Below are positions 14,084 through 63,800 of a stretch of DNA of 64,000 nucleotides, one piece after another. The notes under the pieces are model-generated. The model saw only the letters and a list, made by a program, of their open reading frames with translations. It did not search any database and was not told the DNA's origin. Position 1 is the stretch's first letter, and each line of letters starts with the position of its first letter. This stretch comes from Scenedesmus sp. ARA3 (lineage: Eukaryota > Chlorophyta > Chlorophyceae > Sphaeropleales > Scenedesmaceae): assembly GCA_004335835.1 (NCBI GenBank), contig RWJK01001203.1:53228-117227 (forward strand), given 5' to 3'. The position numbers and the translations under genes were made by a program.

Positions 14084-17000
14084 TCAATCAGTCTTCGCGC
14101 GTCCATACAGCAGCGTGTCCTGCTTGAAGCGCATCGCCACCATGCAATAGGTGCCCGCAAAAGTGAACCAGATGAGGATGAGAGCCACTGCGTAGCCTGT
14201 GGCCTTGTTGGCAAAGGACTTGCTGAAGGCTGCCTCTGAGGGCGCGTTGCTGCCGGCCAGGTCGGCACCTGTTGGTGCAAGCAACAGCAGCAGCAGTCGA
14301 TGCGGCGCATTAGACACCGCTCACTCAACCAAGAGTCTTGCAGCACATGCGAGTTACCGTGAACAGCATGCAGCTCCCTTAAATTCGCCAGCAACTGTGC
14401 TAGCACCCTGCTCCTATGCTGACCTGTCAATTTGACCTCGCACGCAGCTGCAGTCGCACAAGTGGAGACACACTTGCTGCCAGCACGCAGACACACACCG
14501 GCAAGCCTGGCTTGCACAATTCAAATGCTCAGCAGCAGCCTGTGTGCTCACGTGAGCGCTGCCGCAGCACCGTCCTGTGCTCACAGATGCATGCAACCAT
14601 ACAACCCTGGCAAACGTCAAAGTGCCTCAGTGGCAGCCTGTGTGCTCACCTGAGCGCTGCAGCAGCACCCTGCTGTGCTCACAGATGCATGCAACGATAC
14701 AACCCTGGCAAATGTCAATGGCAAACGTCAAAGTGCCTCAGCAGCAGCCTGTTCACCCACTTGAGCGCTGCAGCAGCACCCTCCTGCTGACCTCCTTCCA
14801 GCCCATCAGGTCGGAGGCCTGCCCAGAAGACACAGGCACGTCACCCAGCAGAGACACCTGCGACAGCAGCACACAGCATGCACAGCAAGATGTCAGTGTT
14901 GCATGGCAGCATGTAGCAGGCATGCCCAAAGGACACAGTCACTTCAACCAGCAGAGACACCTGCGACAGCAGCACACAGCATGCACAGGACGATGGTGAG
15001 AACACTACAGCAGCAGGTAAGATACCTGGCCAGAAGACACCGGCACAAAAGGCAGCAGCACCTTTTGCAACAGCAGCACCCAGCATGCACGAAACAAACG
15101 TAAGAGCGCCAGTGCCCGCCAATGCCCGGCCGCATGTAACTGCCGGGCGCACCGCTCAGCGGAGACACCTGCGCAGCAACGCGCGCCATGCAAACAGCCA
15201 TGTGCGAGCGTTGTTGCACAGCTGCACCCAGAATGCACAACATAATGTAACACGATGTCACACCCCATCCCGCAGCTCGGAAAACTTGCACAATCATTCA
15301 GAATTGCCCCAGTGTCTATATCGTCCAGCTGCAAAATGTCGCCCTGCAAGCCGCAGCCCACCTGGTACAGCACGTCGTCCCCAAATACCTCCTTGAGCTG
15401 CCCTGCAAAGCCTCCTAGCAGCCCCACCAGCGCCGCCTCTGCTGCTGCCAGCGCCTGAGAGCCAGCGGGGTGCAGCGCTGCCAGGCCCTGCAGGCCCACA
15501 AAGGTGCTCTCATACACCACCATGTCCTGCAAGCCACAAGCAGGCAGGCGTTTGTTTATTTTGGATTGTCGTCTTGATCGTGAAATAGGTGTGATACTGT
15601 CATGAACGACAGGCATGCACTGTTGCAAGCAGCGCAACGAACTGCCCTGCCTACGGCTGCTGTCGGCAGCACACAGCGATATGTACTGCGCAGCGATGCC
15701 CCCTGCACCGCACGCAGTGTCACACACCCAGCCACATCAGCCAGCAGCACACGGTACCTGATCCTCCTCTTGCTGCTGCTGCATCCTCAGCACGTCCAGC
15801 TCCTGCTGACTGGCCCCCTGCAGTCCTGCAAGCTCGATGCCAAACAGCCGAGCAGCAGGGTGTGCCAAGTCCAGAGGTGCATCCACGCCAGGCAGTGCCA
15901 GGCTTCCTGCAAGCCCCGCCTTGCTGCTGCTGCGCTGCTGCTGCTGGTGCAGCTTGCCGCCGCAGCGGTGTGCAGCAGTTGAGAGGTGGCCTGCCATGCA
16001 CGTGGCTGCGTGGCAGCCCTGCAGGACATGCAGAACACAGAGCAGCAGCGCAAAGCGATAATGCTTGTCAGAATCAAACATGGCATGTCTGGCGCTGTGG
16101 TACATGGTGATCCTGCTGAGACCATTGTACACATACATCAGATGCAGAGCACAACTGTTTATGTCCAAAAGGCCTGCTGCCATGCTGGCTGCTGCAACAA
16201 CAGCCACACTGCCCACGCCCTCACGCCTCCTTGTGCTGCCTGGAAATGGCCCACACGACTTGTACGGCACTACAATGCTTCGCACAAATTGCAGTCAAGT
16301 TAAGCAGCGCACCTTGAGCGCAGAGTGGTCCAGCACTTTGACTGCCAGGTCTGGGTTTGCAGAAGCAATGTCGCTGGTGGCCTGCAGCATGCTGCCTGCA
16401 GTGGCTGGCTTGCTGCTGTCTGCAACATCCAGCCTCACTGTGTGGCCGCTGCCAAACGACTCCAGCAGCTGCTGCACACTGCTGGATTCTGCAGGAGAAG
16501 CATGCCACAGGCAGCGGCACAAGTGAAGCGTTGATGTGCTGCATGTGCATCCTAAGCCAGCCATTGCAGGGCAGAACAACTCCCTAGCACATCAGCTGCC
16601 GTGTGCTGGCATTATTTTATGCAAAGTACTTGCACAAAAGCATCGGTTCAGGTGCAGAGATAGTGATCCAAACATCATGCAAGAGCAGGTGTGGATTGCA
16701 GCAGTACATCCAGTAGGCTGCTCATGCATGTTGCGCACCTGGGGCCAGCCCAGCGATGTTCAGCAGCAAAACGGCCTTTGGCTTGTTGAAGACATTGTGC
16801 TGCACGATGCCTTCGACCTGCAGCGCCAGACAGGCAGAGGATAACTGAGGTGAGCTTGCTGCCCTGTACTCGCGCCCAAACCCCGCCTGCTGAAGCTTGC
16901 AGCGGGCCTGACCTGCTTAGCAGTATCGGCTGAGAGTTTGTAAGGAGGAACTAGTGCAGTGGCTGCACACAGAGCTCCTGCACTGGCTGCCTGCGTGACC

Positions 17001-17125
17001 GAGCTGGGCGTAGCTTGCTGCTGCAGAATCTTGCTGGACGGATCGTGCAGCAATACTGTTCCAGCTTCAACGTTTGCATCGATATATGCCACGATCAACG
17101 TGATCGCAAGAACTCCCCTCATCAT
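14084..17125 (-). CDS. Type I membrane protein, DUF7794-like
   Basis: A seven-exon model is phase-consistent: 16913-17125, 16739-16817, 16313-16488, 15758-16018, 15362-15526, 14761-14857 and 14084-14268, giving 391 residues. The start is CCACC-ATG at 17125, a signal-peptide-like segment (MMRGVLAITLIVAYIDANVE). Exon 2 carries HNVFNKPKAVLLLNIAGLAP. I recall a comparable segment in plant predicted ER type I membrane proteins (DUF7794), together with a single C-terminal helix (ALILIWFTFAGTYCMVAMRF) and a short tail FKQDTLLYGRAKTD. Most of the protein is therefore lumenal. A Gln-rich patch in exon 4 is lineage-specific. The 3' ends of exons 5 and 6 are the least certain: exon 5 could extend about 60-80 nt past 15362. 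The family function is not established. Intronic partial exon copies surround exon 6. Confidence 0.65.
14519..15200 (-). repeat. Splice-junction echo array around exon 6 of the DUF7794-like gene
   Basis: Two sets of tandem partial copies are seen. At about 14535-14800 there are three copies of a segment containing the exon-6 donor side (CTGCAGCGCTCA followed by a GT), offset about 98 and 111 bp. At about 14851-15175 there are copies of the exon-6 acceptor and its first codons (CGCAG|GTGTCTCTGCTGG): one 103 bp upstream, and looser copies near 15030 and 15160. The copies are truncated, so using them would add or shift sequence. Confidence 0.6.
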
Positions 17126-17720
17126 GGTGGCATGAACGTGCACACACCGACGCAACACAGGAAGCTACAGTGATCTGATGTCTACCGTGAAGAAATCGCT
17201 TCGCTGGTGCTGTATCTGCTGATCTGCATAAGAAGGCTCGTGCAGTTGGGGTCATACACAACCCTAGTGGTTGAGACCAGGGTGCGTGAGGAGGTCAAAG
17301 CGGTGTTACCGGCGAGCATTTGCTGGCAGTGACATGCCGCCCTCTTTTGTTTAGCAGCACAAGCTTTGGTGGTGTTACACAGCAGCGGCTGCTCCATTCC
17401 AACCTCTCATTGTCCAGGGTAACTGTTATCCCAGTGACTGCCAATGATCACAGGTGGGAGACCACACAGTTTTCACCTCTGGCAGCCTAGGCGACCCAGC
17501 AATGCTTGTACTTGGTTTGAAGACGATATTGATCAAAACACAGCATGCTTAAAGGCCCCGATGCCACAGGCATCGCCAACTTGGCGGCTCCTTGAAGGAG
17601 CCGCAGTGCATGCCTCCTGCCAAAAGCACTGAACAGTTCAGTCTGAACTCTTTTCAAAGACAATCTGCCGCGATCCCGCAGCCAACTAGCATCAAAGGTC
17701 GTGCAGTTCTGGCTTGCAAC
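17126..17720. other. Spacer between the DUF7794-like gene and MYND copy A
   Basis: This stretch holds the upstream region of the membrane-protein gene and the 3' flank of MYND copy A. TTACA near 17364 could be a TGTAA signal for copy A, but it lies about 350 nt from the stop. I see no gene. Confidence 0.35.
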
Positions 17721-20700
17721 TCATTTGCCATCTTCGTGCTGCTGCTGCTGCTGCTGCTCCGCGGCCGCTGCGGCTATGCGCTTGCACACCCGCCTGTGCA
17801 GCTGGTTGGTCCAGCTGGCTGTCAGGCACTCCCTGCTGCAGAACCTGGCAGCCCTGCAGCCGCTGCACACGCAGCCCTTGCCGCCTACCAGAGCCAGCTC
17901 ACTCACCCTGGCCAGGCTGCTGCAGGCGGGGTTGCAGCACCACAGCGGCTGCGGCAGCTGCACGATCACTGCAGAGCCCACCTGCTGCAGCTGCTGCGCC
18001 AGTTCTAGGCTCATCACCTGCTGCACTAGGCCATGCATGCCAGCAGCGCTCGTTGATGGTGCCTCGTCTCCGCTTCCATCTTCACACCCGTCTTCAGACC
18101 CGTCTTCCTCTTCGTCTTCACACTCATCTTCATACTCGTCTTCCGCATCGCCTGTCATCCCAGACACGTCAGCACCCTCCTCCTCCTCACCATCATTGTC
18201 ATCATCATCATCCTCATCATCATCATCCTCATCATCTTCCAAATCGCTGTCAGTCACCAGCCCGTGCTGCCGCACATGGCGCACACCAATCTGAAACAGC
18301 GACTCCAACTGCTGCTCCAGCTGCTGCTTCGCCTGCTCGGCAGCTGCTGCTGCGCCAGGCAGCCGCACACGCGCCAGGCCGTCTGTGAGCGCACCGATCG
18401 AGCCGAACACTGTGGCCAGCACGCACTTCACCTTTGCCTGTGAAGCCTCAGGCGTCAGGCAACCCGTAGCTGCGCTGCCAGTGCGCAGTACCAACGCCAT
18501 GTGCTCCTGGCTGCTGGCTGCAGCAGGCGCCGCATGCACTTGCGCGAGCAGCTGCCCCACCAGCGCCATGCAGCGAGCCAGCAGCACCAGCCGCTGCTGC
18601 AGCGGCAGCTGCACAGGCAGCTCCATGACCAGCTGCAGCAGCACACCGGCAAGCAGCAGTGTGAATGCCGCCATGGCTGGCGTCGCGGCTGCTGGTGCTG
18701 GTGGTGGTGCTGCGGGTTCATCTGCCGCTGCCACAGCCGCTGCTGCTGCTGCCGCTGCTGCTGGTGGTCCATCCGCTGCCGCTGCCGCTGCTGCTGCTGG
18801 TCCATCCGCCGCCGCTGCTGCTGCTGCTGCTGCTGGTGCCACTGCCAGTAGCTTGATCATGGTGGTGACCAATGCAAACAGCTCACGGGGTGCTGCTGCA
18901 GCCGCTGCAGCCATCACAGAGCGCTCTTGGCCTGCTCGGGGCCCCTGCTTATCAGCAAAGTTCAGGGCTGAGCACAGGAAGCTGATGCTGTTGTGCATGG
19001 GCCCCAGCCCACTGTCTGCTGCCAGGCGCAGCCCTGCCTCCAGAGTGCTGCAGCTGCTGGCTGGGGCCTTGCTGATTGTGCCAGCTAGCTCAGCAGCAGC
19101 AGTGCTGGCATCGCTACCGTGTACTGCCGCTGCAGCACCACAGGCAACAATGACGAGGCTGTGAGTAAAAGGTGTGGGCTGTGGAGTGTGTGCACTGACG
19201 GTGTGACACCTGTTGCATGCAGTTGTCTTGTGTGCAACACCGGTGTGTGACACCCATGCTAACATGTATGTCAGCAGCATTCAGGGTGCTCAGATTGTGA
19301 GCGTGCCTGTGCTGCATTGTGTGTAGCACCTGGGTCTGGCAGCGTCACTGGCACCTGAAGCACCTAACCAGCAGCCACAGATCTGCAACATGCACACTCA
19401 GCACAGCTGCAAGCACTGCCTGCCGCGGCTGACACATGGCAATTCAGCCGCAACACCACGCGCTGAGCTGTGCCCGGCAGCAAGGCCCCACCTGCGTCAG
19501 TCAGCAGCACCACCAGCCGCCCAAATCCACTCCGCAGCGCTGTGGCGTCTTCTGCAGCATCGCTGCTGCCGCTGCCGCCGCTGCTGCTGCTGCTGCTGCT
19601 GTTGATGCGCTGCAGCAGGTGAGGCCCCACACATGTGAGCAGCAACTCCAGCAGCAGCCTTGCTGCGTGCTGCCCTCCCATAACTGGTGACTCAATTGCT
19701 GTTGCCACAAGATCCAGCACGCGGTGTGCCAGCTGCATGTCACCAGGCTGCAGCAGCAACAGCTGTAGCAGCATTGGCAGCAGCGCCGTGTCAAGCACTG
19801 TGTCTGCGAGCATGCCACCTGACGTCGCACCTTGCAGCAGCTGCTGCAGCTGCTGCAGCAGCTGCTGCTCCGGCTGCTGCGAGGTTCTACCCCGCACAAG
19901 CTGCTGTGCTGCATGCGCTGCATGCAGCAGCAACACCATGTGTGGAGGATCAACAAGCTGCTGCTCACCCGTAGGCAGCAGCAGCGCCCTGGGCAGCAAC
20001 TCCTGCAGCAGCTGCTGATGGCAGGCAGGGACTTTGGCTGGATCTTGCTGTCGCCCAGTTGCTACTGCTCCTTGTTGCTGCTGCACATGATGCCTGTGCA
20101 GCCTGCACACCTCGACAGCTGCAGGACAAGCAGGCAACACGAGCAGACGTGTACACTCGTCAGAAGAAGGCTGCATGGCAGAGCTTTGCTGAAAAGAACC
20201 AACATCCCTGCGTTGCCCTTGTGTGCTGCCACCTGTCGAGGGCAATGTGTACCACCTAATTCTGCAAGCAACGCCTCATCATTTTACTCATGCATGTGCT
20301 CCTGTATGCTTGCGAAGGCAAGCAGCTTGCAATGCGTCATTCCAGCAGCATAGTATTCTGCAAGTTAATTGCACAACACCGGCGTACAGAGCGGCATTGC
20401 CCAGTTGGCCAGTCTTGGCCAGCGACTTGGCACTGCGCCCGCCCAACGTCCTACATCAGTGCCGCAGGGCGTGCCCAATCAAAAGGCAAGTGCTCACCTA
20501 GCCCCAGGGCCAGCAGCTTGTACAGTGCAGGCTCAGCCAGCAGCTGAATGCTCTGCTGCGGCAACCGCGTCACCTGCTGCCCCGCAATGTCTGTGCCCAG
20601 GCGCTTGGCCAGGCCCTTGACCCACAACGCTACTGACAAGCCGCTGTGCGCGTGCGCGCGCACGCCGGCGCTGCTGCTGCTGCTGCTGCTGCTGCTGTCG

Positions 20701-21672: not shown

Positions 21673-21730
21673 CGCATTGGGGCGGGTCAACGCCATCAGC
21701 GGTACTTACTGCTGCTAGATTCACACAGCG

Positions 21731-21868: not shown

Positions 21869-21872
21869 TGAT

Positions 21873-32990: not shown

Positions 32991-35678
32991 CTACACAGCA
33001 TGGTCGCGCCTGTGCACTCCTTCACTAACGTGGCCCTCCGCACTGCCGCCGCCATCCGCCCAATCCTCCTCCGTTTGTACTTTGACATACTCCTGCTGCT
33101 GCTGCTGCTGCTGCTTGCTGCTGCTGATAACTGGACCCAACCCGTATTTCTCAAGGTACTTGAGCCAAGTGTACCACACGCCTCCCAACGTATTCATAGT
33201 GAGCCCCAGGATGTTGAGCACGTGGAACTTCACAGTGTCTACAAAGAAGCCCAACACGATTGTCACCACACCCCGCAGCACGCCCACGATGGTCGTTGTC
33301 AGCGCGCTGTTGTGCATCGTGCAGAGGAACATGCTGCAAGGCAGGGAGCCAGGCAGGCAGACAAATGGGCAGGGGAAGGTTGCTTTAGTTCGGGTGAGAT
33401 ATCGAGCACTAAGTTAGTGGCGCATCTGGCAGCAACCAAGCAGAGCTGCAGCAGTTTGATCCACAGCTGCTGATGGCGGCTGGGCAGACAATCCCGCTTT
33501 CCTTGCTGGCAAAAGCCGCTGCCGACATAAACTGCAAAACATTTTAATAACTGTTCGCCACCGCCAACAGCACAGGCAGCACCCGCCTTACTTAATAGGC
33601 ATGCACGCCAAGCAACATGCCAACACAAAACCAGTTGAATGTCAGGAAAAACATTGATCTGTGCATCTCTGCAGACCCACCTGTAATTCAGCAGGCACCC
33701 CATTGTTGATGCAGCCACCACCATGAAGTAAAAGTACAACGCGCCATGCGCCGCACTGCCGCTCTGTATGTGCTGCGCCACGCGCGTGAAGTCACCATTG
33801 GCTGCTGTGATGAGCAGCAGCAGCGGCAGCGACTGCATGGCGTTGTACCAGAGCAGCTCCGAGGTCGACGCGCCAGCAACGTCGCTCTGCAGCAGCACAG
33901 CGCAGGCCGCGGCAGGCAGCATGCCAAGTGTGCTTAGAGCAAAACAGCACCGTGCTCACAGCAGCGGCAGCGACTGCATGGCGTTGTACCAAAGCAGCTG
34001 CGAGGTCGACGCGCCAGCCAGATCACTCTGCAGCACACAGCACACAGCATGCAGCACAGCGAGCTCAGCCTCTTCCAGTAGGGGTCAAACTTGCACTTTT
34101 CCTCCTGGAAAAAACGATGGTGAATATACGCATACATATCACTCTGCAGCACACAGCACACAGCATAGCCAGCTCAGCTTTCACCACAGCAGGGGACAAC
34201 ACCTGACGTCGCTTGGGCGTCAAAGACCATGGCGCGATGCACAACTCAAACCAACATGCCAGCAAGATAGCCGGATGGCTTTTGCACACTTACGTAACCG
34301 CACGCTATTACTATAGCAATGTGACTACGTACTGCTGCTCTGGATGAAAAGTGCACCGCTTGCCCTTCAAAGCAACTCGGTACTACAGAGCAGCGCACCT
34401 GGAACTCCACCAGCAGCAGGTAGAGCGCCTGCACCAGCACGCTGCCAAAGGCAAACAGGTAGGCCGTGCCGTCAAATGACAGGTCACCCGCGCCAGCCAC
34501 CAGGCAGCCCACCACCACCAGGCCCACAGAGGCAGTGATGCGGGGGTGCGGCCATTTGCGCTTCCATACAGACTTGATAATAAGGATGGTCATTGGAGTG
34601 AGGCGCTTGATGGCGGTGTACCTGCAGATGGCCAGTGTTGCATGATTAGTGTTGGTTCGCTGTTAGTTTTGTGTGTGTTGCACGGCTGCGGCCACACAGA
34701 CTTGATGATAAGGATGGTCATTGGAGTGAGGCGCTTGATCGCCGTGTACCTGCAGGCGTGCAGCATTGCATAAAGTGTGTTAGTTTTTGGTGTGTTATGT
34801 GCGGCTGCGGCCGCTTGCGCTTCCAGGCGGACTTGATGATGAGGATAGTCATTGGGGTGAGGCGCGTGATGCCCGTGTACCTGCAGATGGACAGTGTTGC
34901 GCAAAGTGTGTTGGTTTTGTGTGTGTTGCACGGCTGCGGCCACTTTCGCTTCCACACGGTTTTGATGACGAGGATATAGTCATGAGCGTGAGGCGCTTGA
35001 TGGCAGTGTACCTGCGAGTGTACAGCGTTGTGATTGATTACACGTGTGTTACGTTTCCAAAGTGACACAGTGTGGAATTTGTTAGGAACTGTGCAGGCAT
35101 ACAAGGGCCACTGCCGTGCAGTTGCATGAAGCCCTTCCTGACAAATCCCACACTGTGTCACTTCAGAAACGTAACACATGTGTAACCAAGCTACCAGCTC
35201 TACATGCCGAATGGCAGTGTACCTGCAGAAGGATATGGGCAGGTTGAGTGGATGACAGTTTGGTGTGTACGATGGGGGAGCGGCAGATTGGTTAGTGGAT
35301 GTATGTGTAGATGCAGCCTGAGGGTTTGCATAGCAAATCTGTGCAGGCGCGTGCATTGACAGCTGCAAGCGGCCCGTGCACATAAGCGAGGCTGCGTCCT
35401 TGCCTTCACAGCAGATTTCAACAACCTCACTGCGAGCCGCACACTCACATTGGCAGGTTCATGCCCTTGAGGCCAAACAGTGCAAAGGCAGTGTTGGCTG
35501 TGTATAGGAAGCTTATCCCAAGCAGCGACTTGAAGCGGCGGGGATTGAATAGACTGAAGTTGAGCACACGTGCCAGCAGCAGCGGGTACAGTATGACCAT
35601 CGTCGATGCCATTTGCACCAGCAGCACCACGGTTGGTAGCGGGAAGATCAGCAGGCACAGCCGGTTGATTATGCTCAT
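32991..35678 (-). CDS. Nucleotide-sugar transporter, SLC35D/TPT type (5' exon(s) unresolved)
   Basis: Four phase-consistent exons were found: 35449-35678, 34399-34621, 33681-33886 and 32991-33333, totalling about 334 codons. They encode hydrophobic helices with family hallmarks: FALFGLKGMNLPMYTAIKRL, DLSFDGTAYLFAFGSVLVQA, and NSALTTTIVGVLRGVVTIVL, equivalent to the NSALTTTIVG motif of SLC35D-type antiporters that carry UDP- or GDP-sugars into Golgi or ER in exchange for nucleoside monophosphate. The C-terminus is a cytosolic poly-Gln tail with acidic residues. The frame begins MSIINRLCLLIF, which corresponds to the end of helix 1, so at least one upstream exon is missing. A candidate first exon is at 36443-36694. 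The substrate cannot be told from sequence. Introns hold two echo arrays and a hairpin. Confidence 0.78.
33818..34160 (-). repeat. Splice-junction echoes of transporter exon 33681-33886
   Basis: The acceptor and first codons of the exon (CTGCAG|AGCGAC..., coding AGASTSELLWYNAMQSLP) are repeated 141 bp upstream as a truncated copy (about 33958-34040). A shorter remnant of the acceptor (GTGTGCTGCAG|AGTGAT) sits about 116 bp beyond that, near 34140. Only the copy nearest the exon continues into full coding sequence. Confidence 0.7.
34555..35025 (-). repeat. Splice-junction echo array of transporter exon 34399-34621
   Basis: The acceptor and first ~70 nt of the exon (coding YTAIKRLTPMTILIIKSVW) recur upstream at about 34694-34750, 34810-34880 and 34930-35011, at offsets of 128, 131 and 131 bp. 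A weaker copy lies near 35221. Copies 2-4 run out of exon similarity after KRK-PQP and pass into a shared intron piece, so each unit is exon start plus intron end. Copy 4 has a small indel that breaks its frame. Confidence 0.78.
35038..35185. repeat. Foldback hairpin with 51-bp arms in transporter intron
   Basis: Arms 35038-35088 and 35135-35185 are reverse complements at 46 of 51 positions (TTACACGTGTGTTACG... paired with ...CGTAACACATGTGTAA), with a 46-nt loop. It sits between the fourth and fifth echo copies of the downstream exon. No clear target-site duplication is visible. It could be a MITE, or a small-RNA precursor within the intron. Confidence 0.8.
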
Positions 35679-37165: not shown

Positions 37166-37383
37166 CGGCAGCATTCAGCAGAAGGACCTGCCGCTGCACT
37201 TTCTGATGCCAATTAGCACACCCTCACAGCACAGTTGGCAGCGTGCAGCCCTCAGCCAGATATCCACCCAACAACCTGCTGCAGGAACATCTAGCATTGC
37301 TGCTATTGCGGCTGCCATTTCTGCTGCTGCTGCTGCTGCTGCTGCAGTTGGTTCCCAGCGCTCCGCTGCAGGGTGTCCAGCTG

Positions 37384-37437
<54 letters not shown>

Positions 37438-39437
37438 AGGTATGTTACTCACCAATGCGTTGCAGGATGTCCAGCCCCTCCAGCACCTTGCCAAACACCA
37501 CGTGCTTGCCTGCAGTGAAGATTGGAGCAGCGGCAATATCACAAAACTGGGTGTCAAGGCAAGGCAAGCAGGTTCTTCCGCTCACAGCACCTTGCCAAAC
37601 ACCACATGCTTGCCTGCAGTGCGCAGCGCAGTAGCGGCAGCATCATATAATTGGGTGTTAGAGCAAGGCAAGCAGGGTTGTCAGCTCACAGCACCTTGCC
37701 AAACACCACGTGCTTGCCTGCAGCAAAAATCGAAGCAGCGGCAGCATCACAAAACTGGGTGTCAAGGCAGGACAAGCAGGTTTCTCAGCTGACAGCACCC
37801 TGCCAAACACCACTTGCTGTGGCCTGCAAGATGATCAGAGCAGTGGCATCACAGAATTGAGCATTTAAGCAAAGTAAGCAGTTATCTCAGGCGTTCCAGC
37901 ACCTTGCCGAACACAACATGCTTGCCTGCAACATGAGCGAAGCAGTGGCAGCATCACAGAACCGGTGTCAGAGGAGGGGAGGCAGTTTATTCACCTAATA
38001 CATGCACGCCTTCCAGCCCCCAAACATCGTGGCCTACAGCAGACAAAACCATCAAACCACCATAGCACTGCGGCGCCGCGGCTAGTGTGAAAGACAGCTG
38101 GTTGCTGTTGCTGTTCTTGCCACTGTTTGCCATGCTGTCGTAAGGTCGTGCCGCCTGCTGCTGAATGATCTGCAAGCCCATCTGTGCACTTGAACTCACA
38201 GCAAGCAGGGTCAAGATACAACCATGCAGCGCTATGCCCGACAAACAACTAGCATACTTTCATAGAGCGTTTGAACCCCTATACAGAACCATCAAACCCA
38301 CCACCACACTGCGGCGCCTCTGCCAGTGTAAAAAAGAACTGGCTGCTGTTGCTGTTCTTGCCACTGTTGGCCATGCTGCTGTAAGGTTATGTCTCCTGCT
38401 GCTGAGTTTTCTGCAAGCCCATCTGCGCATTTGAAGCCACAGAAACCAGGTCAAGACACAAACCTGCAGCACAACGCTGCAGGCCCAGCGGAATACAAGC
38501 AAACAACAAGCCCTGAAAGCGTTTGAACCCCTACAAATCACCATCAATTGTTGCAAACTCACCGTCGCACTGCGGCGCGGCCGCCAGCGTGAAAAAGAAC
38601 TGGCTGCTGTTGCTGTTCTTGCCGCTGTTGGCCATGCTGAGCACCCCGGCAGCGTCATGCTTCAGCTTGAGGCCCGGCTTCTCATCATTGAACTTGCCGC
38701 CGTATATGCTGTCGCCACCAGAGCCATCACCTGCAAAAAAAAAATTGCATGAGGCTACGAATGTTATTCTTTGTTAGCTGTGATTCGTCGTGCTTCAGCG
38801 ACAGGCCCGGCTTCTCATCATTGAACTTGCCGCCGTATATGCTGTCGCCGCCAGAGCCATCACCTGCAGGAAATGAGGATAGCAGTGTCAGTCTTTGTTT
38901 GCTGTGAGGAATAGTCGTGCTTCAGCCAACGCAGCAGCGTCGCTGGCAGCGTCATTGAACTTGCCACCATATATGCTGTCACCACCAGAGCCGTCACCTG
39001 CAGCAAATGAGGCTAACAATGTTAGTCTTTGCTTTGTGCCAATAGTCGTGCTTCAGCTTGAGGCCGGCTTCTCGTCATTGAACTTGCCGCCGTATATGCT
39101 GTCACCACCAGAGCCGTCACCTGCAGGAAATGAGGTCAGCAGCATCACTCTTTATTTGCTGGGAAGAATAGATATGCTTACACTAGCACAGCAGTGTTGA
39201 ATTTCATGTAGGTCAGGGAAGAGCTGCGCAAACTGTGTGCAGCAGCAGAGGTTGCCTCATCCTCTCATTGGGTTTTTTTACAGAGTGAGTTCACGGTTGC
39301 TAGGTCCAGCCCTTGTAACTGACTTGCTCAATTAACAAAAAAGCAGCAGAGGGCAGCCCAGCTTGCCAACACACCTCGCACCACGTCGCCGCCCTGGCAG
39401 CAGAAGCCCGGCTCTATCCGGTGGAACTTGGTGCCCT

Positions 39438-40070: not shown

Positions 40071-41205
40071 CAGCAGTGGCACATGACGGATGAAGCAGCA
40101 CATCGCCAAAAGCACAGGTGTGACAGGCGAGACAATGTGCAGTGATCGTGCAATGTAGCCATGGGGATACCTGGTACTACGGGCTGCAGAGTGATAAGAT
40201 CTACAAGATGGCACCTGCTATTGCAGTTTAACCACGGAGCTAGATTGGAGAAGCATGCTTGCACCTGGTGTACAACATGGCTTTCGCTGCAGTAATAGGG
40301 TACACAGCCAATTGCTGGCAGCTGTACACACATGTCTTCACACACAGGACGATACTGTGTGACACAAGAAAACGTTGATATTTGGCTGTTGCATGTCACT
40401 AAACAGCCACCTGAAATTTTCAACTGTCTTTGGCACCTCCTTGTCAAACAGCTCAGCTACTATGCGTCCTGCGCGCAACGGCGGCGGCTGCTCTGTGCTC
40501 ATCTCCCCTGCCAAGTGCAGAGACAGCAGCAGAATATCAACCAGCAGCAGCAGCAGCAGCAGTTGTACAGTATGTTGGTCTCGTGTATTTTGAGTGGCAA
40601 CATATGTTGCTGTCTTGATGAAGGACACGGCCACTTGACAAATTGCAACGCAACATGGAGCTGCTGTTGCTGCTGCCTGCCGCATCTGCTGCATCTTGTT
40701 TGCTCGGACTTTAACTGAATGTATTCTGCTTTGTCAGTAGTGCACAGCAGACTGTTTCCTTCAGGCTGCCTGAAGAACACTAGCTTGTGTTGTTGTTTGA
40801 GTGCCAGCAGGAGATACCCAGAGGTTGCACTGTAATGCTGGTGGGGGACAGCACAGCTGCACCCACCAATCTGGCATGACACAGGAACTCAAAGTAATGC
40901 ATATGGTGCATTTGCATTGTGGGTGTCAGCGCGCGTGCCAATTGTTGCGGGTGATGACGGCAGCAGCAGCACTGGCAGCAGCTGTAGCGGCAGCACCTCT
41001 GCCCACCTTTGCTGTTCCAGTTGGGGTCATTGCTGTATCCTTCCCGCAGCATCTGCAGTCCCTCCTCATCTAGATCTGCTAAGTTGCCGCTGAGGCCGTA
41101 CTGTGACCCGCACTGCTGCATAAAGTCCACTGCTCGTTGGTATGCTGCTGACTCCTGCTGGTACTTTGCAGCATCGCCAATGTCGATGTCCAGGAACACC
41201 TTCAT
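37051..41205 (-). CDS. Divergent-loop cyclophilin (peptidyl-prolyl isomerase)
   Basis: The exons are 41007-41205, 40411-40507, 39961-40021, 39375-39435, 38563-38730, 37453-37509 and 37051-37121. Every junction is GT-AG and in phase, giving 237 residues. It catalyses cis-trans isomerisation of Xaa-Pro bonds. Visible motifs are GRIVAELFDKEVPKTVENF, the plant-type divergent loop GKSSKKPLHFK, FHRIEPGFCCQGGD (catalytic Arg, Phe, Gln), GKNSNSSQFFFTL and GKHVVFGKVLEGLDIL, ending VDVTIADCGVL. It differs from canonical cyclophilin A in two ways. An insertion of about 60 residues separates the first strand (KVFLDIDIGD) from GRIVAELF. At the cyclosporin-contact Trp position, the loop reads PQCDGKH instead of the usual EWLDGKH. 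There is no targeting peptide, so it is probably cytosolic or nuclear. Three echo arrays and a sequence gap lie in its introns. Confidence 0.9.
37129..37164. repeat. (CAG)12 next to the cyclophilin exon-7 acceptor
   Basis: On the coding strand this is (CTG)12 ending just before GCCTGCAG|ACAAGG, the acceptor of the last cyclophilin exon. It probably supplies the pyrimidine-rich tract. Confidence 0.6.
37386..37436. repeat. (CTG)17 tract
   Basis: Seventeen uninterrupted CTG units lie just 3' of the exon-6 donor in cyclophilin intron 6. They read as CAG on the coding strand. Confidence 0.8.
37484..38000 (-). repeat. 104-bp echo array of cyclophilin exon 6
   Basis: The acceptor and first 27 nt of exon 6 (GCAAGCACGTGGTG..., coding GKHVVFGKVL) recur at start positions 37484, 37588, 37692, 37796 and 37900, an offset of 104 bp each time. 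Only the copy nearest the exon (37453-37509) continues into EGLDILQRI and a donor. The intronic part of each unit (for example CACAAAACTGGGTGTCAAGGC) is also shared. A degenerate sixth copy may sit near 38013. Confidence 0.85.
38060..38640 (-). repeat. Echoes of the 3' end of cyclophilin exon 5
   Basis: The end of exon 5 (coding MANSGKNSNSSQFFFTLA) with flanking intron is repeated downstream at about 38290-38380 and 38060-38140, at offsets of about 261 and 241 bp. The donor region is changed in the copies (CAGTGTGGTGGTGGG). These echo the donor side of the exon, unlike the 104-bp array, which echoes an acceptor side. Confidence 0.8.
38690..39125 (-). repeat. Echo array of the 5' end of cyclophilin exon 5
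   Basis: Four copies of CTGCAG|GTGATGGCTCTGG... (coding GDGSGGDSIYGGKFNDEK) occur at offsets of about 133, 134 and 123 bp. The copy at 38730 belongs to the true exon. The upstream three stop after about 45-75 nt of exon sequence and pass into a shared intron piece. Confidence 0.85.
39439..39594. repeat. CAG repeat interrupted by assembly gap
   Basis: Uninterrupted CAG units run on both sides of the gap in cyclophilin intron 3. On the coding strand they are CTG units reaching the acceptor CTGCAG|GGCACC. The true length is unknown. Confidence 0.85.
39490..39539. other. Assembly gap of 50 N
   Basis: Fifty undetermined bases lie inside a CAG repeat. Fifty is likely a placeholder, so the repeat length and distances across it are not reliable. 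Confidence 0.98.
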
Positions 41206-41796: not shown

Positions 41797-42040
41797 GTCA
41801 TCCCTTCGCCCGATTACTGCTTGCTGTCCTTGTCAGCAGCTGCATCCCCGGCCGCCAGCACTGCTCGCACATGCCCCTCCACATCCACCTCAGCAGGCAG
41901 CTGACTCAGCAGCCAGCCTGCCCAGTCATCCCTTCACCCGATTACTGCTTGCTGTCCTTGTCAGCAGCTGCATCCCCGTTCGCCAGCACTGCCCGCACAT
42001 GCCCCTCCACGTCCACCTCAGCAGGAAGCTGACTCAGCAG
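41797..42040 (-). repeat. 128-bp duplication of the TmcB-like gene's 3' coding end
   Basis: The last coding segment with its stop (about 41925-42040, coding AEVDVEGHVRAVL...ADKDSKQ) is repeated 128 bp downstream at 41797-41912, including the stop. The downstream copy is outside the frame of use unless reached by splicing. Confidence 0.8.
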
Positions 42041-42918
42041 CCCCACTATCGCCTTGTCATCATGCCGCAGCTGCGCCAAGTAGGGCCGGTACAGCGCAAT
42101 GAAGTACAGCAGCATGCAAGCCAGCGAGGCAGCCAGCAGGATTATGTGCAGCTGCTTCACCTGCTCCAGCCTGCAGCAACAAGTGCAGCAGCAGGCACAG
42201 CAGCAGGGGCGACTGCTCAGCAGCAAGTAGTGGTGCATATTGCAGTGCGATGGCGGCAGTGTGTATTGCCAGTGCTGTTCAGCCTTGGAGGCCTATGTCT
42301 TGTGAGCCATAGCCAGCATGACGTGAAGTTTGCTGCCGCAAAGACGGCAGCACGTCTCTGTTGTTGTCAGTTATTTGGCTGGTGGCTGTCGTGCCAGCAC
42401 TACATTCCGCTGCTGTGCCTCATCCAGCTGCTGCATCTGCAGGTGCGCACCTTTTTATAGGCCAGTGGACAAACACATCTGCAGCCGTTGCCAGGCCATC
42501 ATACACATCACCCGCGACAATCTTGCTGGCAAACAGGTACCTGCAGAGGTGCAGTGCATTGCAGGCAGGTGCAGGGATATAAATGGCGAGCCTGGCAGTA
42601 CACCATGTGACTTAGTCATGATGCTCACTACGCTCAGGTCACATTGCATGTGGTTGTGCGCCTAACTAGCAGCTTGCTTACACTCATAACAACAGGTTCA
42701 AGTGCATGCAGCACAGGCTGCAGCTGTGCACCACCTGCGATGCACTACCAACTGCAAACAATGACAACACAGATAGGCTTGCAAATGCAAACAACATGTG
42801 TGACACAGGCACATCCAGCAGCGCTGTACAGTGCACTTACGCAGGGTGGTCTGGGTTGATCATGCTGTCTGGCGCTAGGCACAACATCATCTGCATGTCA
42901 GTGAACTTGCCAAGCTGT

Positions 42919-43017
<99 letters not shown>

Positions 43018-52000: not shown

Positions 52001-55000
52001 CGCGTCGCTGCCGCAGCCAGACAGCCTCGCAATGGACAGGCATATGGGGAACAGCGAGTGGTCCTGCACATTCACAGCACAGGTGCTGCTCAAACACCGA
52101 CAAAAACAGTACTTGAAACATAAACACGTCACCGCAAGTTGCATGTAACCAAAGCAGCAGTTGCCTGGCGCATGGCAGGAACTGCCAGACTTGCAGGAAC
52201 CCCCACTCCCAGGCCTGATGGGGGATACCTGGCACGGTTAAATGGCGCGCCCAGGCAGCAAATCAGCAGGGGCTGGGCTCAAGGCGTTACTCGGCAAACA
52301 CAAATATAGAAACACGCATGGTATGTACCCCTATCCTGGATGCGCCGACAGCCTAGTGCTGGAGTGTTGGCTGCAGCTGCGTACCTTGTGGAGCATCACC
52401 AACGACATTGGAGTGTTGCCTGTGTGCGAGTGCGTGCCGTCCACAACGCGCTGCAAGCCGCACATGCACAGTAGCGCACAGCACAGCACGTCAGAACACT
52501 GGCAATGCATCACAACAGCTAGCGTTCTGCCAGGCAAGTGGACTGCCTAAAACATGCAACATAGCCTGCAGGAATGTCTGCGTCCTGCAGAGCAGGGGGG
52601 ATGCATGAGCTACACAACAAGTGCGCTGCCCTGTGTTCACTTGCCTGCATGAAGGCGTCCTGCTGTGAAGTGCTGGCCTGCGGCCTGCAGAAATGACAAG
52701 CACACACACCATAAATTCCACAAAACGCCGCAAAGAGCCAGACAGTCGCTTGCCAGCTACCTGGATGAGGCTGTTTGTTATGCACGTTATGCACAGCTCA
52801 ACATGTGCACACCTATCATGGCAGTAGACCCGCGGCTATGTGATGCATGGTCTCAACAGCCGCTGCTACTAGTGACGTTCGTGACCTTGGCGGCACTCAC
52901 ATCAGCACAGAGATGTTCTTGCCCTCCATCTCGCCCTTGCCGTAGCCAAACATGCTGCGGGCTGCCAGGTTCACCAGCAGCATCAGGCCTTGTGCATTGA
53001 TGATCACCAGGCCGTCAACCTTCTCGTCAATCGCTGCTGCTGCAGAGCCAGCGCTGCCACCAGCCACAGCTAGCGCAGAGCTGACCATCTTGACCATGCT
53101 GTCAGAGGTGCCATGGTGCGTGGCAGCTGAATAGTAGTGCCGGGCAGCTTCAGGATCGTTCTGCACAAACTCTAGGAAGCGGCCGTACACTTTCAACAGC
53201 TTGCCACTGTCAGGGTAGCGCTCAAGCACCCTGCAAGCCAGAACAAGCAGCACCAAGCGACAACGTGCATGCCAGCGTGGGTTGATGCCTGTAAGGCCAT
53301 GCAGACAGGACAGTGAGGCTTGCAGTGCCATGACTGGGGCGCCAAAGTGCTTCTGACCCCACCGCACATGGTGCACAGCATATCACATGCGGTCTGCAGC
53401 ATGCGCGGTCATTACGGTATTCTACTTTTGCGAAGTTCAGCCCATGCTGCCTCACCGCTTGTAGATGGCAGAAGCTCGCTGCTCTGCAGACTGCATGTGC
53501 TGCAGGCTGCGCTGCATGTCCTTGAACGCAATCGTGTCACGCAGCAGGCTGGCCCAAAACTGGCGCTGTGACATCAGCGCCATCTTATGGGCACGCACGC
53601 AAGCACTGCAGAAAAGCAACACCCCAGGCAGCACAGCAGAGCGCCGGCAGCAATACAGAATTTGGATCAGAAGCTTGATCAGGTGCTTGGCGGAGAGCTG
53701 CGATGAGGAAAAGTGACGCATTGATTGCACAGCAGGAGACCCTTAAGGGGCTTAGGAGCTCGCTGCAAATCATTAGACATGTCAGCCAGTGTGCAAGGCC
53801 ATGTGCAACTGCCGCCCCTGACTGACCTGTAGTTGCGCTGGAACTCCACGTGGCTGAGCAGGTCCAGGCCTTCGCCGTCTGCACAAACATGGCACACACA
53901 ACGAGCAGCAAGCGTGCAGAGCATAAAGAAAAGCTGAAAAGCTGTACTGCTAATCGTCTTGTTTAAACCCCCATACAGCTGCTTTGAGTGGGTGACATAC
54001 AGGCACACATCATGTGCGCTGTGAGCAGTAGTGCAGCAATGCTCTGTAAGAGGCGCAACAGCTACAATGCAGCGTTGAGAAACCACACCTCTTTTGAGCT
54101 GCTTAGCCAGCTGCTGCGCCACAAATATGTTGTATAGGCCAAGCAGTGAAGGATGCGCGCGCTGGGCCATCTGCATATGTGTACGCGCTGCCTGGCCGTT
54201 GCTGTGCACAATGAGGAAGTTGGCATACATCACAAGCAGTGAGGGGTCGCCAGGTAGGCGAGCCATGCCACTCTGCAGCAGCAGCAGCATCGGCAGCAGA
54301 CTGTGAGGTACGTTGCAGCGTGAAGCAAAATGGCCGCGCTGTATGTCGAGCTAGCACATGTTTGTGGTGTTTTGTGTGACCCAATTTCTGTCACTAATCG
54401 CTGTGCTGTTTTAAAAAGTGCACACCAGGTGCTGTAACCATTGCTCTGCACGAAACACGCATGCAGCCTCAAAGGTCCAACCCCAAGATCCCTCTCACCT
54501 TGAGAACAAACTCCCCAAAGTCAGCAGCATCTGGGTCAGGCACGCCATCTTCATCCCACACACGCATGCCGCGTGCCACGACAGAGATCTGCCGCACATC
54601 CCTCCATCTGTACACTGCCTTCAGGTCGCCCATCTGTGCCACAACAGAGTTGCCAAATGCTCCAACGCCCGCCTGGTCGGTGCTGTACGGTTCGTCAGCA
54701 CTGCTGGTAACAGACATGGCTGCCTTGCGCTGCTGGAATGCCTGCCGCAGCTGTTTGGTGATGCGCTGTGTGAAAGCAAGCCTGGCCCAGGTGATCAGGG
54801 CGCCGATGAACACGAACAGGAAGATGCTGTAAAGCACCGACTGCACGCAGTTGCAGCAAAGCAGTGGTCTCAGCGCTATTTCTCTGTTTCTCAACCGACT
54901 TAGGCGCGGCAGTTGAAATCACATGCCACAGCTGATGGTAAGACCTGACTGCTAGTGAAGGAAGAGCACCGCATAATACCATGGTATGTGGCAAGTGCTG

Positions 55001-58416: not shown

Positions 58417-60824
58417 TTAGCTCCAGGTGTTCTTGTTGCGAAGGCTGTCCAGCATGATCCACTCCATGGCCTGTGCAACGCTGAAGACCTTGGTGTACCA
58501 GTTGCCCAGGAAGCGATGCATGTACTTGTCCTGCAAGCATGCATAACAGTATTGAGCAAGTAGCAGCAGCAAAGCAGGGTGTAGCATGTGATGACGAAGC
58601 AACAGTTGCAGCACAGCTGTCCCTGGATCAAAAGGGAGGCTCTTCAGGACAAAAGCAAGCAACGCAGCTGTGCTAACGCTGCCGAAGGCACACATCCACG
58701 AGTTGGAGCACAAGCTCAGCTGTCGCAAGATGCAATGCTTGGGTCGCTTATTGTATGTGTTGCACACTTGTATGCTATGCTGCTTATCCCAGTACTTCAC
58801 GCGCCCAACTCGCACCTTAGTTGCAGCAATCATCGCCTCTGCCTGGGGGCCCTGGCCCGCCTGCTGCACTGTCTCACTGATGGACTTGCTGGTCAGCACA
58901 GGCGATGTAACAGTCACAACACCCAGCTGGCGCTTCTGCTGCTGCACGGCACCATCTGCTGTGCCGCCGCCATCAGAGCCTGCAGCAGCCACTGCTGTGA
59001 ACTTCATGGCTCCCTGCCGTATGAACTTCTCGGCATTTACATCTGGTGTTGGCTCGTCCTCGCCAAAGGCCAGCTGCCAGCCAGCCGCCTTGTAGCGCTC
59101 CGCTGCTTTGCGGTTGACAGCAGCAATTGCTGCGTCAAAGGCTCCTTGGTTGAGCGCTGCTGCTGTCACCCCGTCTGCATAGATGCCGCTGAGCCCCAAA
59201 TCCTGCAAGCAGGCAGTCAGCAGGGGGAGAAGGCATTCTGAGTTTACGAATGGCTTGCAGGAGTCCAGATGTCTGTTGCATAGTTCAGCAGATCCACATT
59301 CGTTGATTGCAAGTGGAGACCACCGCACTCTGCAATATCCGCGCCTTTTGCCAAGGTATCTGCCTCCCGCATGCAACACACATGCGCAGCACAATCTGCC
59401 TAGCATTGGGCCGCTTGTGTAAGCTAGTGCTTGAGCCACTGCCGCTGCGCCTGCCACGCCAGCAACAAGCAGCACGGCACAACGATACTCTGGGCATGCA
59501 GGACAGGGACACCGAGCATCTCACGCCTGTGACCGCCGCACAGCATACCATATGCGTAACAACGCGCACCTGAGCATTGGCCTGTGGCCGCTGCAAGCTT
59601 GCAGGACAGCAACAAGAAGCACCTCAGGCTTCACTACCACCTTCTTGTACAACAACACTTCATCAAGCAGGTGCCAGCAATCACCTCAGCAATGGCCTGT
59701 GGCCGCTTCAGCTTCAGCCAATACTCTGGCGATGATGCACGACTGGTCAGCAGCGCTCCTTCTGTGGCAGGCCGCACCACATTAGGTGGCGCCACCAGCG
59801 CATGCACCAGCACCACCACGCTGCCGTCATCCTGCTCAGAGATGACCGGCTGGTTGAACAGCAGCGCCTGCAGGACAGGAAGTGATTGAACATGCATGTT
59901 CGTCAGTGGATGCTGGCTGCATCAGCACCACCACGCTGCTGTCATCCTGCTCAGAGTTGACCGGCTGGTTGAACAGCAGCGCCTGCAGGACAGGAAGTGA
60001 TTAACATGCATGTTGGCCAATGGATGCTGGCTGCATCAGCACCATCACACTGCCATCATCCTGCTCAGAGTTGACCGGCTGGTTGAACAGCAGCGCCTGC
60101 AGGACAGGAAGTGATTGAACATGCATGTTGGTCAATGGATTTTGCCTGCACCAGCACCACCACGCTGCCGTCATCCTGCTCAGACATGACCGGCTGGTTG
60201 AACAGCAGCGCCTGCAGGACAGGCAGCAGCCAGAGTTGTACGGTTTGTTGGTGTTGTGTGCTCCTGCATTGGTTCCCGACCTGCTGCCTGCCAAGCAATG
60301 GATGCAACAATTTCTTGTGCCTGAACACAGCAGCACCGGACAGCTGCATCAGTTCCTGCAAGCTGCCATTCAACCGATGCACCTGCAGTCTGCCCATCAA
60401 GCTCCTCCACACAAACTTATACTAGCCGAGCTGGCTTCAAAGCGCATACACAGCCACAGGGACTCAGCCACATCCGCACCTCTACTGTCGTGTGTGTCTG
60501 CACCACCACTCGCAGCTTTCCCAGCACTTCCCGTGGCAGCGTGCTCGCCAGCTTCAGCTGCGCAGCAGCAACAAAGCGCTCAGCCTTCTGCAGCACCCCA
60601 GGGTGCAGCGCAGCAGACACAGCAGCGCCTGCCTCGCGCCTGGCCCCTTGCAGGAGCGACTGCTGCAGGGATGAGGCTGCATGTGCAGATGCTCCATGTG
60701 CATGCTGGTGCTGGTGGCTGCTGTGTGATGTGTCTGGTGCGTCGAGGCTGGCTGTGGATTCAGGTCCACCCTGCCTGCCTGTTATCCAGGCGGCGCATGG
60801 GTTGCCCATGCCTGCAGGACAGAC

Positions 60825-60857
<33 letters not shown>

Positions 60858-63800
60858 CATGTTGGGTGTGGAAGAAGGCACTACAGCAAGGACAGCAGCA
60901 TCAGACGTTACACAAGCAGCACACAGTTCGCCCGTGCCTGCAGGATGCAAACAACAGCAGTTACACTGAAACTCAAATGCACGTTGCGCACCGGACACAA
61001 AGAAACTTCAAGCGGTTATGTCTGCACCGCACTGAATGTGTTGGTGCTTATATCGTATCCATTTATAGCTCACCTGATGCCATGAAGTACGGCGCAACCA
61101 GCTCTGCTGTCTGGCGCACCATCAGCAGCAGCTGGTCCGTAGCTGCCTGCTTCGCGCTCTTGCCTGGTCCTTCGTGTGCTGTTACAAATGCTGCCATGGC
61201 CCTTGCAAAGGCCTCGGTTGCTGTTGCATACTCGGTGTGTGCTGGGATGTCCCCGCGGTCGTAATTTGGGATGCCGTTGGAAGTGTGGCCATGGTTGGCG
61301 CCTGGCACGAGGATGAACGGCTGCTGCGCTGCTGCAAACCTGGAAGATGTATCGTGTGGAGCAGGAGGGGTGGACAGCGGTGCATGCGCAACGGTTAGGT
61401 TTTGATTGCCTGTTGAAATATGAGGTGCATTATGTCCAAAGAATAAGCAAAACCTGCTTTCACCAAGCCACAGCCGGCGTTTTGCCTTCACACCAATTTA
61501 AAATTGCCCCTTCCATTTCCACCCACTTCCATCCCGCCGTCTGCTACGCTGCATCTACTGCCAGGCCAGCCCATCGTACAGTTTCAATTCCCTCTCAAAC
61601 CATGAGGCTCCAATTCCACTGCTCACCTAGGCCCCGCCTTTTGCGCCAGTACCGCTGCGTCTGCAGCCAGGCCAGCCGACCAGGGCCAGCGCATCTGCCC
61701 ATCCAGCTCCGCACCCAGCAGCATCACAGGCCTGCAGCAGCAGCAGCAGCAGCAGCAGCAACAAACATGACACAGTGGCAGCAGCACAGGATGCGCTGTT
61801 CTGCTGCGGGTAGTGTGGTTGAGCAGGCCTCCATTGACCCAGCAGCAGCAACACAGGCCTGCATAGAGCATGGCAGCATGCTGCAGGGCCGTTGTATAGT
61901 GCACAACATCGCACCTGCCCCAGCCCTCCAGGCTGGGCAGTTTGCCCATTGAGGATCGCCCATCGAAGGTGCTGACCAGCAGGATGAAGCCAGCCACAGC
62001 CTTGAAGGCTGCAGCATTTGGACTTTGGTCAAGATCAAGATGTTCAATTTTCCATCACCGACCAAACCGTCACAGCTACGGTGTAACACCAACATCAAAA
62101 CTTGTCCAGCATGTCCACCGCTGGGCAATAACAAATGGTTTTCAGCGCAAGGCCGCTGCGCACCTGCCCCAGTCCTCCAGGCTGGGCAGCTTGCCGATTG
62201 AGTAGCGCCCGTCAAAGGTGCTGGCCAGCAGGATGAAGCCAGCCACAGCCTTGCAGGCTGCAACATTGGGACTTCAGTCAAGATCAAGATGTTGAACTTC
62301 GCATCACCGATCAAACTGTCACAGCTACGGTGTAACAGCAACATCATAATCTTGTCCAGCATGTCCACTGCTGGGTGATAACGAGTGGTTTGCAGCACAA
62401 GGCCGTGGCGCACCTGCCCCAGTCCTCCAGGCTGGGCAGCTTGCCCATAGAGTAGCGCCCGTCAAAGGTGCTGGCCAGCAGGATGAAGCCAGCCACAGCC
62501 TTGAAGGCCACAGGGGACAGCGTCACCCCAGCGGCGCTTTGGCAGCACAGGTACAGGTTGGTCAGCCGACCTGCACAGGGACACGCCGCAGAGCAGCTCA
62601 CATTGAATGAGAAGTTGCGAAAGCAGCAGAGGGCAGGTGCCCACAAACGTTCCGTTTGTAGCAAACGTTTAGACGACTGATGCCGCCTGCAACAGTGCAG
62701 CAATGTGCACATGGCAGAACCCCACAAGCTCCAAGTGGCCACTGCTGCTGCACGGCAAGCACCATCTGCAGTTGCATTGGCTGAAATTCATCAACAAGCA
62801 CTGTGGGCGCTTGCCCTCCCCCAGCCCGCCTCACCCCATCCCGACTGGCGCGGCTTGAAGCCAGCTGCTGCAGCAGCATCCTTCACACTGTCAAGGGCGG
62901 CCTCCAGCTTGCCACTGGAAGGAAGGTTCTGGTAGGCCTGCACAGCAGCAGCAGCAGCAGGAGCAGCAGCAACAGCATCAGAAGGTCAGCGAGCAGCATG
63001 ATCAGCAGGGGAAGCGGCAGCAGCAGCAGCAGCGGCAAATCCCGCTGCATGGCCACTGTGGAGGCAGCAACATGAATTCCTGACAATACACTGTTTGTCA
63101 AGCACAACAAATAAAGCACGGTTGTTGCAGTTTGGCTGCAGGTCTGTTGTTACTGCAGCTGCTGGAGCTGCCATTGCTGCTGATGAGTATTGAGGTACAG
63201 ATGAGAAAAGCATACAGGGCGCACCGCCAGCTGCACACCTGCTCATAAGACGTGCCCGGGTTCTCCTTCATCATGGCTGCCATGATGCCTTGGTAGTCCA
63301 GATGCATGCACGCCACCCACAGCCGCACATCAGGACACTGCGCCTGTGGGCATGCAGGATTTACAGATGATATATCAGTTACCAGTTACCAAAGCAGTTA
63401 CCAAAGCAGCAGCAGGCCCACCCACAACGGAGATATAACGTCAGCGGACGGGTTACCACATACAAAGTTGTGTGGTGTGTGCCGGGCGGCGCCTGTGCTG
63501 TTGCTGCCTCCGTCGTGACGTGTACAGCAGCAGCATGCATTTGGGCATCGCCTCTGCTACGTGCATTGGCCGCTGCATGCGCTGCTCAAGACTGCCCTGG
63601 CAGCACGGCGATGCCCAGCGCTGCATAACAACGCACAAGCTGCCGCCACTTGGGAACTCTTCACTTTATTGAGGAGTGATGCTGATCTTATGCAAGAATT
63701 TGGTTTGGAGTGTTGCCACCTGGCCTCCTGTCAGGACTCCCTGAGACCAGGTACCATGCAAGACTGCTTCCTTTTATTTTTTTTATTTTCCTGGCTTTAT

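Follow-up and report, generated by a model that had tools for sequence, protein, structure and literature searches.

Tandem Arrays of Exon–Intron Junctions in Introns of a Scenedesmacean Green Alga

Several genes in a 64,000-nt stretch of contig RWJK01001203.1 from the green alga Scenedesmus sp. ARA3 (positions 53,228 to 117,227; this whole stretch is hereafter the window) contain introns in which the end of the adjoining exon, its splice site and neighboring intron sequence are repeated in tandem. A first-pass annotation of the window, made from the sequence alone, reported such arrays in five unrelated genes and read them as traces of a genome-wide mode of intron growth by duplication across exon–intron junctions that leaves decoy splice sites behind. 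The locus, therefore, raises the question of whether the arrays are real, how widespread they are, and why they should be centered on junctions. We find that tandem junction arrays are real and genome-wide, and that 77 of the 86 clusters of tandem copies that involve a junction or an intron span a junction (0.90; 49/53 on contig starts). The explanation that we favor, with somewhat better than even confidence, is recurrent tandem duplication of segments of ~100–150 bp that straddle exon–intron junctions, with the copies accumulating on the intron side.

Echoed Junctions within the Window

Seven arrays with a period of at least 90 bp were found in the window by Tandem Repeats Finder (TRF), with periods of 98, 104, 115, 128, 131, 134/257, and 249 bp. 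Together with in-frame reading of the arrays and local alignment of the copies, this bears out the positions that the first-pass annotation had given, from which the gene names DUF7794-like, TmcB-like, and hydrolase are also taken. Copy identities below come from local alignment to the master and refer to the aligned part only. The features are as follows.

14514..14802, minus strand: donor end of a DUF7794-like exon plus two tandem copies (TRF unit 98 bp; donor near 14762 placed by eye)
14608–14675 and 14514–14577, minus strand: DUF7794-like donor copies (84–88% identity; donors CTCAG/GTGAG and CTCAC/GTGAG)
33681..33886, minus strand: transporter exon with acceptor boundary 33886 and one copy in the upstream intron (gene model; lag 141, exon-part identity 0.90)
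33963..34056, minus strand: copy of the transporter acceptor end 33886 (90% identity; unnamed in the first-pass annotation)
34399..34621, minus strand: transporter master exon (TPT/UAA-like, below Pfam cut-offs) with acceptor TGCAG/GTACAC at 34621 (gene model, in-frame reading, Pfam)
34692..35035, minus strand: three tandem acceptor copies in the transporter, unit ~131 bp (TRF; 79–84% identity)
37453..37509, minus strand: cyclophilin exon GKHVVFGKVLEGLDILQRI with acceptor 37509 (by eye, missed by the gene finder; spliced product identical to the T. obliquus protein)
37585..37992, minus strand: four tandem copies of cyclophilin acceptor 37509, unit 104 bp (TRF; 77–90% identity)
38563..38730, minus strand: cyclophilin exon DGSGGDSIYGG...AAAPQCD, echoed on both sides (gene model; covered by a PF00160 match)
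38786..39161, minus strand: three copies upstream of cyclophilin acceptor 38730, unit ~130 bp (TRF; 81–88% identity)
38043..38371, minus strand: two copies downstream of cyclophilin donor 38562, at 38266–38371 and 38043–38130 (86–87% identity; absent from the TRF list)
41797..42042, minus strand: two copies of the apparent coding end of the TmcB-like gene with stop codon and flank, unit 128 bp (TRF, in-frame reading, alignment)
59685..59867, minus strand: hydrolase exon ALLFNQPVISEQDDGSVVVLVHALV... with acceptor 59867 (gene model, in-frame reading, T. obliquus protein)
59918..60226, minus strand: three copies of hydrolase acceptor 59867, unit 115 bp (TRF; 94–98% identity)
62414..62570, minus strand: hydrolase exon ending LPSLEDWG/GTGCG, donor 62413 (gene model, in-frame reading, T. 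obliquus protein)
61843..62258, minus strand: two copies downstream of hydrolase donor 62413, unit 249 bp (TRF; 84–91% identity)

Splice-junction arrays are thus present in four of the five genes named by the first-pass annotation, the exception being the TmcB-like gene. There the repeated open frame ends in ...GDAAADKDSKQ*, and because the exon that the gene finder spliced beside the array (41007–41199) is the N-terminus of the T. obliquus cyclophilin and belongs to that gene, the array probably marks a gene end with its stop codon and not a splice junction. A coding-edge array at 19–337 of another scanned locus, L019, resembles this one, and gene ends may be echoed in tandem as splice junctions are.

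Host Identity, Gene Models, and Protein Products

When spliced from the window without the repeats, the cyclophilin (169 aa) equals Tetradesmus obliquus OEZ85_006099 with 100% identity and coverage, and the hydrolase (382 aa) matches T. obliquus OEZ86_013893 with a listed identity of 100% and one substitution in the alignment. Judging from these two protein matches, the host is, therefore, T. obliquus or a very close strain; a glutaredoxin-like protein predicted on another contig shares 94% identity with a T. obliquus protein. In the T. obliquus cyclophilin, nothing is inserted at any of the three echoed junctions, and its alignment to proteins from Chlamydomonas, Volvox, and Raphidocelis is free of gaps there. 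Likewise, no insertion is found in the T. obliquus hydrolase at its two echoed junctions, and EukProt protein GHRQ01010379.1.p1, the name of which looks transcript-derived, has a single copy at the second of these. The copies thus appear to be skipped in the products of both genes, and for these two the T. obliquus proteins agree with the earlier claim that phase is kept only when the copy on the full exon is used.

Gene models came from a two-strand gene finder with a realistic intron cost, self-trained on the scanned DNA without transcripts. Its output comprises 524 exons and 370 introns in the length statistics (median 289 bp), and the consensus that it yields is CAG/GTGAG for donors and CTGCAG/G for acceptors. 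From 29 Pfam cyclophilin matches outside the window, 4163 of 4878 anchored bases (85%) were called coding on the correct strand. Among eight predicted proteins that were compared with Pfam, six scored above the curated cut-off (SNF2/helicase, TPR, FAM91, eIF3i, P450, and a CYP38-type cyclophilin), the TPT and UAA matches of the transporter protein fell below it, and this search gave no Pfam match for the hydrolase-like protein.

Junction Arrays across the Genome

The source assembly is eukaryotic and consists of 1567 contigs with a total of 87.27 Mb. We scanned 317,236 bp of it (N gaps included) in 38 sequences, namely the window, 20 contig starts, and 17 cyclophilin loci; 12 overlapping cyclophilin loci, as well as L001 and L040, which both lie inside the window, were left out. 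An unmasked search for tandem copies at lags of 60–500 bp resulted in 97 clusters (37 donor, 37 acceptor, 3 two-junction, 9 intron-only, 5 exon-only, 2 coding-edge, and 4 other). Junction-spanning clusters, therefore, make up 77 of the 97, and donors and acceptors are equally affected, just as the first-pass annotation had described arrays of both kinds. No matching windows were obtained in 20 cross-contig control comparisons of 10 kb, against 9226 in the 317 kb of real data. Exons of 60 bp or longer have 669 junctions, 68 of which show a junction-spanning copy, and at least one junction array occurs in 14 of the 20 contig starts. Units are mostly 100–150 bp or about double that length: among the dominant lags of the 92 non-exonic clusters, 48 fall at 100–150 bp and 21 at 200–270 bp, close to the unit sizes of about 100–145 and 240–260 bp that had been reported from the window.

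Three of the nine intron-only clusters can be reassigned by eye, win 37459 to a cyclophilin acceptor, win 14565 to the DUF7794-like donor listed above, and win 41778 to the stop-codon array; they were kept in the intron-only column, and they are also among the six "others" at 90% identity in the test on non-coding windows described below. In the unmasked scan, the lag of each of the five exon-only clusters (78, 102, 108, 114, and 168) is divisible by three, whereas the exon-only clusters of a soft-masked BLAST search include lags that are not, among them 143, 223, 238, and 430. The masked search counted 53 junction, 1 intron-only, and 12 other clusters, and because masking can hide intron repeats and so overstate the contrast, we prefer the unmasked count. 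The richest locus in the masked list is the gene of a TPR protein at the start of contig C1400 (L017), with ten separate duplication clusters within 10 kb.

Enrichment of Duplications at Junctions

The observed junction fraction lies well above what chance placement predicts. If units are placed at random, 44–48% of junction-or-intron duplications are expected to span one junction, and neutral duplication simulated on the 20 contig starts, with divergence, constraint on real exons, and the real detector, resulted in 41–46%. Random placement of whole clusters gave an expectation of 34 junction clusters versus 77 observed and of 23 intron-only clusters versus 9 observed; none of 300 placements was as extreme, and the junction fraction in these placements had a mean of 0.59 and a maximum of 0.79. 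The ratio of junction to intron-only clusters was 77:9 at a minimum window identity of 70%, 67:7 at 76%, 62:6 at 80%, 53:6 at 84%, 44:7 at 88%, 40:6 at 92%, and 21:2 at 96%.

With the comparison confined to non-coding windows, the ratio of junctions to others was 29:13 at 80% identity, 28:10 at 85%, 23:6 at 90%, and 12:4 at 95%, where a junction fraction of 0.355 is expected, although junctions and clusters are different units of counting here and a window near the master may hold the exon-derived part of a copy. Exons whose existence follows from PF00160 matches, with ends placed by the gene finder, have a copy at 15 of 53 junctions, and no clusters lie wholly inside their flanking introns. 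A profile of duplicated bases around junctions was not used, as it was likely inflated by copies called as exons.

Properties of the Copies

Of 37 units of 95–155 bp, 34 lie in the exon over 20–70% of their length, and random placement produces a flatter distribution of the exon share (Kolmogorov–Smirnov p 0.025 for fraction, 0.045 for depth). Unit lengths modulo three are distributed as 31/28/21 (n = 80), without a clear bias to multiples of three. The exon parts of 108 copies contain an indel in 51 cases and a net frame change in 37, and many copies are, therefore, untranslatable as they stand.

The splice sites of the copies are nonetheless largely intact, with AG in 62 of 64 acceptor copies and GT in 39 (GC in 3) of 44 donor copies. 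Using the best site within 6 bp for copies and for random spots, the acceptor score was 6.93 in copies, 6.68 in masters, and 0.31 at random intron spots, and the donor score was 6.55, 7.85, and −1.77, respectively. The site in the copy equals or exceeds the real one in strength for 38 of 63 acceptor copies and 23 of 44 donor copies, and 42 of the 68 echoed junctions have at least one copy as strong as the real site.

A gradient of age with distance was considered and dropped as too weak, the nearest copy being closer to the master in 15 groups and the farthest in 9. Microhomology at breakpoints was not interpretable either, since in all but one of 15 young pairs the ungapped run fell short of the lag, probably because of indels.

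Intron Growth and Intron Gain

Introns with copies (n = 98) have a median length of 310 bp and those without (n = 320) of 262 bp. The presence of arrays in most contig starts, their excess over the placement and simulation controls, and the longer introns support the proposal of genome-wide intron growth by junction duplication that leaves decoy sites. Table 1 of PMC5966456 gives a mean intron length of 462 bp for T. obliquus, the longest of the five algae listed there, which fits intron growth without proving junction duplication as its cause. A link of the arrays to intron gain by tandem duplication is not supported: the donor window matched the acceptor window of the same intron (at least 30 of 50 positions) in none of 418 introns, with a control value of 0.2 per set.

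How the Arrays May Have Arisen

Under the explanation that we favor, a segment straddling a junction would be duplicated in tandem, at certain junctions more than once, with the exon end, the splice site, and the intron next to it all copied, and duplication would start preferentially near junctions. By exon definition, the spliceosome would then pair the acceptor and donor closest to the body of each exon, and the outer copies would be silent, decay near-neutrally, and lengthen the intron. Since junction arrays have their copies on the intron side, the real sites are the innermost ones; exon definition would choose them however strong the outer sites, whereas intron definition would favor the copies. 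As the products lack the copies, junction-straddling duplications seem to be tolerated, and since tolerance alone fails to explain the scarcity of intron-only arrays, preferential formation near junctions is favored. We lean toward such a bias in formation over selective retention. For the broader statement that junctions are specific targets, either of tandem duplication with a junction-centered unit of ~125 bp or of selection favoring extra splice sites around exons, and that introns grow outward from exon edges with the arrays as a fossil series of exon-end states, we see the chances as evenly balanced.

Several observations weigh against the favored explanation. Exon ends rest on a self-trained gene finder with the 85% agreement given above, which also calls certain copies as exons and chains neighboring genes; the duplication simulation covered contig starts only; duplication breakpoints are not cleanly readable; and non-use of the copies is deduced from the annotated proteins of two genes. 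When TRF arrays alone were placed at random on the contig starts, 9 junction arrays compared with 7.9 expected, and 80 of 200 placements reached 9, so that the enrichment of exon-derived repeats over controls, which unit placement, simulation, and cluster placement all show, does not extend to this comparison. The same test gave a slight excess for the window (5 against 3.1 expected; 27/200 placements) and a strong one at the cyclophilin loci (10 vs. 4.8; 1/200 placements), where overlapping loci were counted. We give the TRF test little weight because TRF misses diverged copies such as those of the cyclophilin donor. Moreover, two features of the copies hint at less than full neutrality: AG is kept in the acceptor copies more often than elsewhere in the copied exon part (62/64 vs. 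122/146), and in 23 TRF-selected arrays likeness between copies is higher in exon parts (0.834) than in intron parts (0.640).

The last two points are those that would be expected if selection kept the copies, with extra sites and exon ends recruiting U1/U2 components and strengthening the real exon while intron-only copies are lost for want of benefit. The AG excess is significant (Fisher p 0.006, pairs treated as independent), the exon part is better conserved than the intron part between copies in 15 of 19 arrays with at least two copies, differences between copies in the 23 arrays (aligned with MAFFT) are concentrated at third codon positions (.141/.121/.241), and the splice sites in the copies are strong. 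Retention of GT in donor copies, however, is not significant (39/44 vs. 84/102, p 0.46), echoed junctions show no clear weakness in their real sites (donor score 7.85, against 6.17 over all annotated donors; acceptor score 6.68, against 6.93), and a third of the copies are frameshifted. Serial copying from the live exon also predicts the direction of the exon-part likeness and the third-position bias, because a live exon changes mainly at synonymous sites while the intron drifts, and repeated copying from the slow-evolving real exon would give part of both signals; selection may still contribute, given how large the effect is and how well acceptor AG is retained. We regard selective retention as the main rival, though a doubtful one. 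Less probable still is ordinary random tandem duplication filtered only by selection against damage to exons, in which junction copies are tolerated and their exon part stays recognizable. The TRF arrays on contig starts, without a junction excess, fit this reading, and a detection bias does exist, conservation being higher in the exon parts than in the intron parts; yet the simulation that includes this bias and the unit placement both remain at about half of the observed 0.90, the non-coding windows still give 23 versus 6, and signs that frame damage in exons is purged point both ways, all five exon-only lags of the unmasked scan being multiples of three but not all those of the masked BLAST search.

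It is improbable that the copies serve in some transcripts as translated exon ends, whether alternative or mutually exclusive. In-frame copies do have a strong third-position bias (.078/.055/.207) and the gene finder calls certain copies as exons, but unit length is a multiple of three in just 31 of 80 cases, 37 of 108 copies are frameshifted, and the copies are absent from the T. obliquus proteins at the two genes compared. We consider it hardly credible that the arrays are the insides of new introns born by tandem duplication of an AGGT-bearing exon segment (the Rogers model): exon sequence does form part of the tandem units, and AG/G is frequent at the acceptor, but the lack of donor–acceptor homology in all 418 introns refutes intron birth as a general explanation here, and isolated instances, or ones too ancient for alignment, may exist. 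An assembly or sequencing artefact seems equally far-fetched. The assembly is fragmented and has N gaps, and one array (L014) starts at the edge of the N stretch of its locus; however, copies in the window are 2–23% diverged from the master, which makes an artefact unlikely, and clusters occur on many contigs.

Relation to Known Systems

Gao and Lynch reportedly described, in 2009, internal gene duplications in eukaryotes that alter gene structure or create introns. The arrays resemble these as tandem duplications within a gene of segments with splice sites, the copies being adjacent, direct, and in the same gene and including a splice junction in 77/97 clusters; they differ in that the copies are on the intron side at junctions, the product is apparently unchanged, and arrays occur at about one in ten sampled junctions. 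Intronic tandem repeats or minisatellites also consist of a few head-to-tail units within introns, as do the arrays, but in this alga the repeated unit takes in an exon end with its splice site as a rule, and arrays confined to intron sequence are scarcer than expected. Introner elements, which are many dispersed copies of a single element, create introns or make them longer throughout a genome. Intron enlargement is genome-wide here as well, but the unit seems to resemble its own junction. In a cross-locus comparison, 54 of 80 units had no match in another sampled locus and 26 had one. Among the 25 cross-locus matches listed, six link the cyclophilin array at 38730 to other cyclophilin loci, four belong to L008 698, fourteen link L013 8929 to L011, and one links win 33886 to L020. 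In the potato RdRp case of PMC4974935, a tandem duplication copied intron–exon structure together with splicing signals and made a new intron and exon, whereas no new intron is indicated here, donor–acceptor homology being absent in the 418 introns. A partial literature search, covering titles and the starts of abstracts, gave no description of junction-centered echo arrays.

A frequency of 68/669 sampled junctions indicates a frequent junction-linked route of intron growth. The arrays also provide natural tests of exon definition, since real exons lie beside strong splice sites that are skipped in the two proteins compared, and, should serial copying from the live exon be their origin, the arrays would be dated records of that exon. 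In genomes of this kind, gene prediction may yield false exons, as it appears to have done here. Apart from the arrays, the window contains long CAG/GCA/CTG runs at 37321–37437, at 42919–43013 (100% over 95 bp), and elsewhere, some of which are poly-Q or poly-A in predicted exons.

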